Shown here: piece by piece, positions 46,650-48,882 of the stretch | Layout: every line of letters starts with the position of its first letter | How positions within the stretch are numbered: position 1 is the stretch's first letter | Origin: Verrucomicrobiaceae bacterium | Lineage (GTDB): Bacteria > Verrucomicrobiota > Verrucomicrobiia > Verrucomicrobiales > Verrucomicrobiaceae | Length of the DNA stretch: 64,000 nucleotides | Assembly (NCBI GenBank): GCA_016795365.1 | Contig: JAEUHN010000017.1 | Location: forward strand, 62,001-126,000 | Reading direction: 5' to 3' | Translations under genes and position numbers: made by a program | Notes under the pieces: generated by a model | The model's input: the letters and a program-made list of their open reading frames with translations, nothing else | What the model was told of the DNA's origin: nothing | Databases searched by the model: none

Positions 46650-46857
46650 GAACTTCCAACCTCATTCTCTTCATTTCAGAACCGAGCGGATCAGTCTCTC
46701 GGGCGAAGCCCGTTTGCGTGCAGTTTGTGATCAACTCATCGCGTGGAGCCAATGGTTCAGCATCATGCCGATGCCGGACGACGAGTGGGAGGTGGAAGTG
46801 AAGATCGAGAATGCAGAGCGAGTTCGCTCTTGGGCCCAATCAGCAACACCACGATAA
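46648..46857 (+). CDS. Small hypothetical protein upstream of HNH endonuclease
   Basis: A 69-residue ORF with plausible protein composition (SGEARLRAVCDQLIAWSQWF, then an acidic stretch DDEWEVEVKIENAERVRSW). It ends 7 bases before the HNH endonuclease start, which favours cotranscription. There is no signal peptide or known domain, and no family is recognised. Its start touches the divergent Vsr-like remnant. It could be a partner or immunity-type protein, or a chance ORF. Confidence 0.45.
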   Translation: MNFQPHSLHFRTERISLSGEARLRAVCDQLIAWSQWFSIMPMPDDEWEVEVKIENAERVRSWAQSATPR

Positions 46858-46864
46858 CGCCCAT

Positions 46865-47665
46865 ATGAGCACTCGAACGAGATGGACTGAAGCAGAGCTG
46901 CTCATCGCTCTGAACCTCTACCACAAACTTACGTTTGGGCAGATGCACGCTCGCCAACCACTGATAGTCGAGGTGGCCGCCAAGCTGGGGAGAAATGCGA
47001 ACAGTCTGGCGATGAAGCTTTGCAATCTCGCCTCGCTCGATCCCGCATTGAAACTCCGCGGCATCAAGGGACTTAGCGGTGCGAGTGCTCTGGACCAGTC
47101 CATGTGGGATCGCTTCCATGCCGAGATCAACGAATTCGCCCCTGCCAGTGAGGAGGCGTTTCGCAAGCTCTACGCGATCGGGAATGAGTCTGAGATCGAC
47201 GTGATTCCAAAACGCGGAGTCATCGTGCGCATGCTCCGTGCCCCAACTTCTACCGAAAGTCTCGCGAACGTCAGAGTGCGCCGTGGTCAGGAGTTCTTCC
47301 GGGAAGCCGTGATCAACAACTTCGATGGACGCTGTGGTGTGTCTCAGCTTGGCGTGCGCGAATTGTTGATCGCCTCGCACATTCTTCCGTGGTCGAGTCA
47401 TCCGGCAGAGCGATTGAATGTGCGGAACGGCCTTTGCCTGTCGCGGGTTCACGACGCTGCCTTCGATCAAGGATTGATCACCTTTGATGACTCGCTGCAG
47501 CTGGTGTTGTCCAAGGGACTGCGAGATCATCTGTCGGAATCGATTGTGGACGACCTGTTTGGCAAGTTTGAGGGCAAGGTGCTTCACCTGCCTGATGACG
47601 CCGCTTTGCCCGAATTGGGATTTTTGGCGACTCACCGGAAGAGCATCTTCAGAAAGGCCTCGTGA
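46865..47665 (+). CDS. HNH endonuclease domain protein
   Basis: A 266-residue protein. ATG 46865 (MSTRTRWTEAELLIALNLY) is preferred; the 18 extra residues upstream overlap the small ORF in another frame. The N-terminal ~90 residues are a helical domain of the kind that precedes HNH_2-type nucleases (RWTEAELLIALNLYHKL). The HNH core follows at ~140-215: RCGVSQ, LLIASHILPWSSHP, RLNVRNGLCLS and VHDAAFDQGLITF, giving the H, N and H residues. The usual paired cysteines are reduced to one. Restriction-type cleavage is expected, but no methyltransferase is in the window. Confidence 0.88.
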   Translation: MSTRTRWTEAELLIALNLYHKLTFGQMHARQPLIVEVAAKLGRNANSLAMKLCNLASLDPALKLRGIKGLSGASALDQSMWDRFHAEINEFAPASEEAFRKLYAIGNESEIDVIPKRGVIVRMLRAPTSTESLANVRVRRGQEFFREAVINNFDGRCGVSQLGVRELLIASHILPWSSHPAERLNVRNGLCLSRVHDAAFDQGLITFDDSLQLVLSKGLRDHLSESIVDDLFGKFEGKVLHLPDDAALPELGFLATHRKSIFRKAS

Positions 47666-47812: not shown

Positions 47813-47845
47813 CTTGCGGACAGGAGTGTCCGCGCTCCTTTGCGG
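47813..47845 (+). repeat. REP-like hairpin, copy 1
   Basis: A 33-bp unit identical to copy 3. Its core GCGGACAGGAGTGTCCGC (47816-47833) is a perfect 7-bp stem with loop GGAG. It is followed by GCTCCTTTGCGG. Confidence 0.8.
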
Positions 47846-47921
47846 AGCAGCGATGCTCGTGCCTTACGCACAGGTCAGACTGACGCGGCGCTCGCGAACG
47901 CGCGCCAAGGGTCGGCCCAAT

Positions 47922-47944
47922 GGAGCGCGGGCACTCTTGCCCGC
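47922..47944 (-). repeat. REP-like hairpin, copy 2 (inverted, covarying)
   Basis: Read on the minus strand the core is GCGGGCAAGAGTGCCCGC followed by GCTCC, the same hairpin as copies 1 and 3 in opposite orientation. The fifth stem pair has changed from A-T to G-C, keeping the stem perfect. Confidence 0.75.
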
Positions 47945-48060
47945 TCGTCGAAGCACAGGGCTTGGTCGGTGAGGATGCGTTGGTGACCGAGGTTGGCTCC
48001 GCCTTTGCCCAGCACGGTGCGATCACAAGCGATGCGAGGCTTGGGAGACCGTCGCTCCGG

Positions 48061-48093
48061 CTTGCGGACAGGAGTGTCCGCGCTCCTTTGCGG
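48061..48093 (+). repeat. REP-like hairpin, copy 3
   Basis: Identical over 33 bp to copy 1, 215 bp away. It ends 3 bases before the ATG of the SDR gene at 48097, so the hairpin would fall in the mRNA leader of that gene. Confidence 0.8.
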
Positions 48094-48096
48094 GGC

Positions 48097-48882
48097 ATGA
48101 GCACGACTTCTTCAAAGACGGCAATCATCACCGGCGGTGGCACCGGTGTGGGACGGGCGACGGCGTTGCAATTGGCGGCACTGGGATTTGATATCGCGGT
48201 CGTGTATTCGCGTTCGGTAGCCGAGGCGGAGCAGACGGTGCGGGACATCGCGGTGGTGGGTGGTCGGGCTTTGGCGATCAAGGCGGATGTGGCGAACGAT
48301 GCGGAGGTGCGGGCGATGGTGCGTGAGGTGGTGGCGGCGTTGGGGCGTGTGGATGTGCTGGTCAATGGTGCGGGGCAGACGGAATTCATTCCGTTCGATG
48401 ATCTCGATGCGGTGGCTGATGAGGTGTGGGACAAGCTGTTTCGCGTGAACGTGGTAGGCGCGTTTCACTGCGCGCGGGCGGTGCGGCAGGCGATGCTCGA
48501 CTCGGGTGGTGGCATCATCATCAATGTGTCGAGCGTGGCAGCGCAGATCGCGCAGGGGAGTTCCATTCCGTATGCGTGCTCGAAGGCGGCGCTGGACAAT
48601 CTGACGGTGTCGCTGGCACGCACGCTGGCTCCGCAGATTCGCGTGAATGCGGTGGCTCCCGGCTTCATCACGGGGCGCTGGCTGGAGAATGGGCTGGGTG
48701 CGAACTACGAGGCTGCGAAGGCGGCGTTTGAAGCCTCGCTGCCGTTGCATCGTGTGTGCGATCCGGCGGATGTGGCGGCGTGCATTGTGAGTCTCATTAC
48801 TGGCAGCACGCTGGTGACGGGGCAGACGCTGCTGGTCGATAGCGGCATGATGATCGCGGGCTTCCAGGCGAGGATCAGCTAG
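48097..48882 (+). CDS. SDR family oxidoreductase (3-oxoacyl-ACP reductase-like)
   Basis: A 261-residue classical short-chain dehydrogenase/reductase. The NADP-binding motif is IITGGGTGVGRATALQL, the NAG motif is VLVNGAGQTEF, the active Ser is in IIINVSSVAAQ and Tyr/Lys in YACSKAALDN. The C-terminus (ILVTGQTLLVDSGMMIAGF-like) is normal for the FabG-type group. ATG 48097 follows a REP-like hairpin almost directly. The substrate is unknown; the gene is not in a fatty acid cluster. Confidence 0.93.
   Translation: MSTTSSKTAIITGGGTGVGRATALQLAALGFDIAVVYSRSVAEAEQTVRDIAVVGGRALAIKADVANDAEVRAMVREVVAALGRVDVLVNGAGQTEFIPFDDLDAVADEVWDKLFRVNVVGAFHCARAVRQAMLDSGGGIIINVSSVAAQIAQGSSIPYACSKAALDNLTVSLARTLAPQIRVNAVAPGFITGRWLENGLGANYEAAKAAFEASLPLHRVCDPADVAACIVSLITGSTLVTGQTLLVDSGMMIAGFQARIS

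Follow-up and report, generated by a model that had tools for sequence, protein, structure and literature searches.

A family of GGAG-tagged REPINs in a Verrucomicrobiaceae genome, and the RAYT that very probably mobilises it

Three hairpins lie between a gene for an HNH endonuclease domain protein and a gene for a short-chain dehydrogenase (SDR) in the window, the 64-kb stretch of a Verrucomicrobiaceae genome that we analysed (Table 1). Read tag first, each hairpin unit is GGAGC followed by a perfect 7-bp stem with a CTCY loop, and each of these 23-mers, taken alone as single-stranded DNA, is predicted to fold at −7.7 or −9.1 kcal/mol (z of −3.1 to −3.2). The first-pass annotation had reported two identical 33-bp copies with an inverted copy between them, and this is what we find: the direct copies (47813-47849 and 48061-48097) agree at 36 of 37 nt, including all of the first 33, and the inverted copy sits between them. 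It had also reported a change from A-T to G-C at the fifth stem pair that preserves the stem. This holds as well, as the pair is A-T in the outer copies and G-C in the inverted copy, and both versions of the stem are fully paired. The degenerate 23-mer has three matches without mismatches in the window; in ten Markov-resampled windows, it has no match with up to four mismatches.

Two of these hairpins form the ends of a single REPIN, and the third is a solo copy, for which no left partner with six or fewer mismatches was found in the window. Outside the element, the direct copies have 10 of 11 further bases in common (TTTGCGGRGCA, at 47839-47849 and 48087-48097), which is perhaps a trace of local duplication. 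The start given for the SDR gene is the likely one, judging by an SDR motif and also by conservation in the sister species. A frame of 320 codons (47920-48882, MERGHSCP...ADRSVRAPLRGMSTTS...) is open across the whole REPIN and into the SDR gene, so an annotation pipeline could predict a false N-terminal extension of the SDR.

Table 1. Hairpin elements and neighbouring genes, in coordinates of the window
Feature	Position	Strand	Description
HNH endonuclease domain protein	46811..47665	+	upstream neighbour
Solo REP	47816..47838	-	sequence identical to right end of the REPIN
REPIN, long class, 165 bp	47922..48086	.	two inverted REPs, tags outward; G-C left end, A-T right end
REP, REPIN left end	47922..47944	+	GGAGC tag, stem GCGGGCA/TGCCCGC, loop CTCT
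REP, REPIN right end	48064..48086	-	GGAGC tag, stem GCGGACA/TGTCCGC, loop CTCC
Short-chain dehydrogenase (SDR) gene	48097..48882	+	likely ATG 10 bases past REPIN end

The first-pass annotation had called these hairpins REP-like, and further copies with compensated stems do occur throughout the genome (6.74 Mb in 55 contigs). Genome-wide, the 18-mer has 66 matches and the 23-mer has 57 exact matches, or 75 with up to three mismatches, while the reversed pattern has none. Among the 57 exact copies, the fifth pair is A-T in 33, G-C in 23, and A.C in one, so that it is Watson-Crick in all except one. The hairpins belong to a family of short mobile elements with dozens of scattered copies. In the loci that we examined in this genome, at least 31 inward-facing pairs of REPs form elements of 84-187 bp, in three size classes (20 of 84-89 bp, 2 of 111-113 bp, and 9 of 165-187 bp). 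These are REPINs in that two inverted REPs at a short and regular spacing recur as a unit. Several of the elements of 84-89 bp have an inner GCGGCTTCGCCGC hairpin. The REPs are not canonical GTAG repeats, which have GTAG or GTGG at the foot of the hairpin; the tag of the 57 exact copies, and also of copies in relatives, is GGAG, one base off the stem. We also rejected an assignment to the CGTC REPs: CGTC occurs only inside some of the long-class elements, beside one hairpin, and the family is associated with a RAYT.

That RAYT (REP-associated tyrosine transposase), which the first-pass annotation had suggested looking for, is one of ten Y1_Tnp genes in this genome. It lies outside the window, at 2256-2912 of contig C30, and encodes a HUH/Y1 protein of 218 residues (P0001). 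The gene is flanked by the same REP, with copies at 1797, 1954, 2026, and 2183 upstream and at 2864 and 3023 downstream, which make up three long-class REPINs. At the other nine Y1_Tnp loci, no REP copy with up to six mismatches was found within the stretches examined. P0001 matches Y1_Tnp (PF01797) over its cut-off and the TnpArep of known structure 4er8 (E = 8e-4), and its HVH at positions 121-123 (the HUH motif), Tyr182, and Asn186 are invariant in 137 aligned homologues. Its score against the NCBIfam RAYT model NF047646 is 60.8 bits, under the cut-off of 80, so by its sequence we class P0001 as a divergent relative of that family and not as the curated equivalog. Very probably, then, the hairpins of the window are copied by a single transposase gene elsewhere in the genome. 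The REP at C30:2864, together with the start of its REPIN, encodes the C-terminal end of P0001 (RGHSCP; L026:2864-2912). The genome also has a second RAYT-like gene (L027:1813-2523), a 236-codon frame whose product is 36% identical to P0001, and the REPs of this family are not found near it.

The association between this REP and this type of RAYT extends to other Verrucomicrobia. In a collection of named genomes, the closest relatives of P0001 are 57-66% identical and come from Verrucomicrobia MAGs. The best 14 of 80 relative RAYT loci (L046-L059, 57-65% identity) have the REP next to the gene, in copies with 0-2 mismatches, as do L067 and L072. One exact copy is found at L061, only a degraded one (5 mismatches) at L060, and none at L062. 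More distant loci among the 80 have only matches with 4-5 mismatches, such as the units with a shorter stem at L080 and L106. At these two loci (L080:2802-3693 and L106:2911-3609, RAYTs of 42% and 35% identity), the REPs are tagged GTGGAG and have the same CTCC loop on the shorter stem. Across homologous RAYTs of 35-49% identity, the tag is GTAG, GTGG, or GGAG.

The exact 23-mer is present in 29 of 57 genomes searched and in 12 of 24 genera. When pairs 5 and 6 were left free, 124 of 127 copies in six related genomes were Watson-Crick at both pairs and the other 3 had a G.T wobble. At relatives' RAYT loci, where tag and loop were the sole criteria for selecting copies, pair 5 is A-T, G-C, or T-A and pair 6 is C-G or G-C. 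Going by these counts, stem changes are compensated, with further compensated stems in the relatives. Seven genomes whose RAYT is full-length and at least 59% identical have 3, 8, 11, 21, 10, 7, and 30 copies, which is more than in 28 other genomes of the same bacterial family (P = 0.001, ignoring kinship and leaving out the window's own genome). If partial RAYTs are also counted, the difference has P = 0.03 (again ignoring kinship). Two genomes count against a link between RAYT and copy number: G003 has 33 exact copies with only a 51% identical RAYT, and G010 has 18 copies and no RAYT match at E of 1e-40. All 33 exact copies in G003 have the A-T end type and most of them are single, in contrast to the mixed types elsewhere.

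Comparison with a sister species (G001, whose genome is 87% complete) suggests that the elements move. We observed one exact REP copy in G001, as compared to 57 in the window's genome. G001 has a RAYT at the same genomic place (the flanks are 88-90% identical), and it matches P0001 at 59% identity from residue 23 on; from its sequence, it is a truncated relic. No REP lies upstream of it and only a degraded one lies downstream. All three of the REPIN sites that we tested lack the element in G001, one of them cleanly: an 85-bp REPIN (C10:66406-66490, or L030:2907-2991) sits within a long open frame and is read in frame, and G001 has a shorter gene without it (a net difference of 81 bp). At C10:64591-64675 and C30:125012-125096, the element is absent from G001 and other sequence is found instead, so these are not clean empty sites. 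At the site in the window, G001 has an SDR gene of 91% identity, but just half of the right hairpin is left. Upstream of this gene, homology breaks off within that hairpin (window 48074; L289:2279-2302), a synteny break. As the homology ends there, a REP was already present before the species split, and it was cut later.

Given how close the REPIN ends to the likely SDR start (10 bases), one could suppose that the hairpins are RNA control elements of that gene, such as a terminator, an mRNA stabiliser, or a 5′-UTR switch, and that they are kept for their RNA structure. A role in mRNA has indeed been proposed for REPs elsewhere (PMC3733652). This explanation seems very improbable: the hairpins do not match any Rfam family, no terminator-like or promoter-like site was found, copies lie at many unrelated places (some of them in frame within open frames), and G001 retains the SDR gene with just half of the right hairpin. 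The REPIN may have a side effect on SDR expression. Of the proposal in the first-pass annotation that there is selection on RNA or DNA structure, the DNA part is the likelier one, as the evidence favours recognition of single-stranded DNA by a transposase and not a role in RNA. It is also conceivable that the REPs are fossils of past RAYT spread and that the covariation comes only from two old sub-families, with neither activity nor selection at present. Copying would preserve the two types of pair 5 that we see, and related genomes do retain copies without a close RAYT. We nevertheless consider this unlikely. P0001 is intact, with all of the conserved residues present; the ratio of 57 exact copies to one in G001, together with the sites that lack the element there, suggests that the elements spread around the time when the two species separated, or later; and new compensated stems are found in relatives.

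We return, then, to a family probably mobilised by P0001, and to the two types of ends. Of the 27 scorable REPINs in this genome, 21 have one A-T end and one G-C end (shuffle P = 0.004; 4 of the 31 elements have an unpaired fifth pair and were left out). The "compensatory change" in the window is a difference between end types that was spread by copying, and so the copies are related and are not independent events. A similar pattern is seen across 190 RAYT loci, which include duplicates from different collections (such as L081/L211 and L111/L273). We required both stems to be perfect and at least 6 bp long, with up to two stem differences and up to one loop difference, and we merged near-identical inward pairs (150 to 128). 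In 72 of the 128, the ends differ by one compensated pair, in 15 by two, and in 41 they do not differ; the position of the differing pair ranges from 1 to 7, counting from the loop. Resampled loci had no inward pairs. At 19 loci with several elements, some of which are tandem repeats, 42 of 47 elements have unlike ends, as compared to 28.7 expected from reshuffling the ends. If no more than one element is counted on either side of the gene, then 33 of 34 elements have unlike ends, as compared to 23.4 expected (P = 0.001); this test covers 17 loci with unlike arms out of the 32 that have an element on both sides (82 of the 190 have any).

To put a size on the effect of unlike ends, we compared the energy of end-to-end pairing to that of two local hairpins (medians, with DNA parameters). 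In this genome, the difference (end-to-end minus local) is −3.6 kcal/mol for unlike ends and −13.0 kcal/mol for like ends; at the RAYT loci, it is +1.7 and −5.1 kcal/mol. In these calculations, unlike ends put the end-to-end fold and the two local hairpins near balance. Because the mismatch itself makes unlike ends pair worse, by construction, the comparison gives the size of the effect and not its cause. Also, unlike types are just as frequent among neighbours that face outward as among those that face inward (46 of 63 versus 107 of 150), so the REPIN unit is not alone in having unlike ends. This fits polar elements in arrays, and it weakens a reading that is specific to inward pairs. We offer only tentatively, as something that we think somewhat less probable than its converse, the idea that in this RAYT clade selection keeps the ends of a REPIN about one compensated pair apart, which would leave the end hairpins perfect and the folds near balance, so that the transposase is offered ends that it can recognise while a long stable palindrome is avoided.

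The RAYT loci also bear on the tag and the loop. A hairpin family is found on both sides of the gene at 144 of the 190 loci. The better conserved flank is 5′ of the pyrimidine-loop strand at 120 of these and 3′ of it at 9, with 15 ties. After merging duplicates and leaving out loci where flank conservation differed by less than 0.1 or the better flank was below 0.6, there were 101 REP families. In 96 of them, a pyrimidine-rich loop is found on the tag-first strand (most commonly TCC, TTCC, TCT, or CTCC), and such loops occur whatever the tag (GGAG, GTAG, GTGG, or others). This suggests a pyrimidine-loop rule for the RAYT clade.

As GGAG is exactly complementary to the CTCC loop in the window's family, the tag might pair with the loop in a pseudoknot that is read by the transposase. 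The tag flank and the loop can form at least three Watson-Crick pairs in 31 of the 101 families, as compared to 13 for the opposite flank, and the summed run length of tag-loop pairing is slightly raised relative to shuffled loops (P = 0.02-0.04). However, when the loops are shuffled among the families, complementary pairs are almost as numerous (31 observed versus 30.4 expected, P = 0.49, or 55 versus 52.6 if G.T is allowed, P = 0.25), so tag and loop do not covary. TCC loops accompany GTAG and GTGG tags just as they do GGAG. We rejected tag-loop pairing as a rule, and we give the pseudoknot hardly any credence.

What we propose, with considerable confidence, is that this REPIN family is mobilised in trans by P0001, which would recognise the tag and the hairpin in single-stranded DNA, and that one compensated pair distinguishes its two ends. 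Each REP, once single-stranded, would fold into a short and perfect hairpin that has GGAG as its 5′ guide tag and CTCY as its pyrimidine loop. On the analogy of RAYTs that have been studied, P0001 would bind the tag and hairpin in this form, cut at a dinucleotide that is picked through the guide tag, and move or copy the unit of two inverted REPs, and we take the route of transposition from the same analogy. With one compensated pair separating the two end types, each end hairpin should remain perfect and pairing between the ends should be weaker. The unlike ends may bring a benefit.

When we searched the literature for REPs or RAYTs together with Verrucomicrobia, PMC3733652 was the sole on-topic paper found; it includes the verrucomicrobium Opitutus terrae among the hosts, with intragenic REPs. 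In a search mainly of openly accessible main texts, we saw no family of REPs with a GGAG tag reported. GT[AG]G has been given as the rule for REPs, with CnGA for class 3 (PMC6006769), and GGAG is absent from the tags given in PMC3733652 (GTAG, GYAG, GYRG, GTRG, GTMG, and GTGG). Thus, our analysis adds a family of REPs with GGAG tags and CTCY loops, along with its RAYT, in the Verrucomicrobia. RAYTs have been treated as vertically kept (PMC8049555); among the relatives here, intact, decayed, and no close RAYT are all represented. Apparently new are GGAG as a tag, the rule of pyrimidine loops, and the pattern of one compensated pair. Heterodimers and compensated sub-families are not, as both were published in PMC3733652. 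That paper sees no obvious explanation for the preference for heterodimers and suggests escape from SbcCD. Our results put this puzzle in a concrete and testable form (one compensated pair, with a calculable shift in the balance between two folds), and if selection does keep the ends about one pair apart, that would explain why heterodimers of REPs prevail.

REPINs were defined in Pseudomonas fluorescens SBW25 (PMC3116915), where, as here, inverted doublets of REPs replicate, solo REPs are remnants, and the RAYT is flanked by its REPs. The doublet in SBW25 was described as symmetrical, with identical and invariant ends that pair into one hairpin, whereas the window's family has a GGAG tag and ends that are mostly set apart by a compensated pair. 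The GTAG repeats (PMC3733652) share with our family the compensated stem sub-families, the head-to-head dimers, the prevalence of heterodimers, the intragenic REPs, and the REP-flanked RAYT. In E. coli, the BIMEs that accompany TnpAREP combine y and z REPs (PMC8266576), so that there, too, each unit has two unlike REPs, with a 5′ guide tetranucleotide and a hairpin in single-stranded DNA. E. coli REPs are 29-37 nt long and bulged, with a GTAG tag and unselected loops, in contrast to the perfect 7-bp stem and conserved loop of the window's family. The Group 3 pairs of RAYT and REP from Stenotrophomonas and Marinomonas (PMC8266576) have the same short perfect stems with a guide tag, and in this group the loops matter for cutting and the guide tag helps to select the cut site. 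They differ in having GTAG tags and GCT or TTTA loops, where the window's family has GGAG and CTCY.
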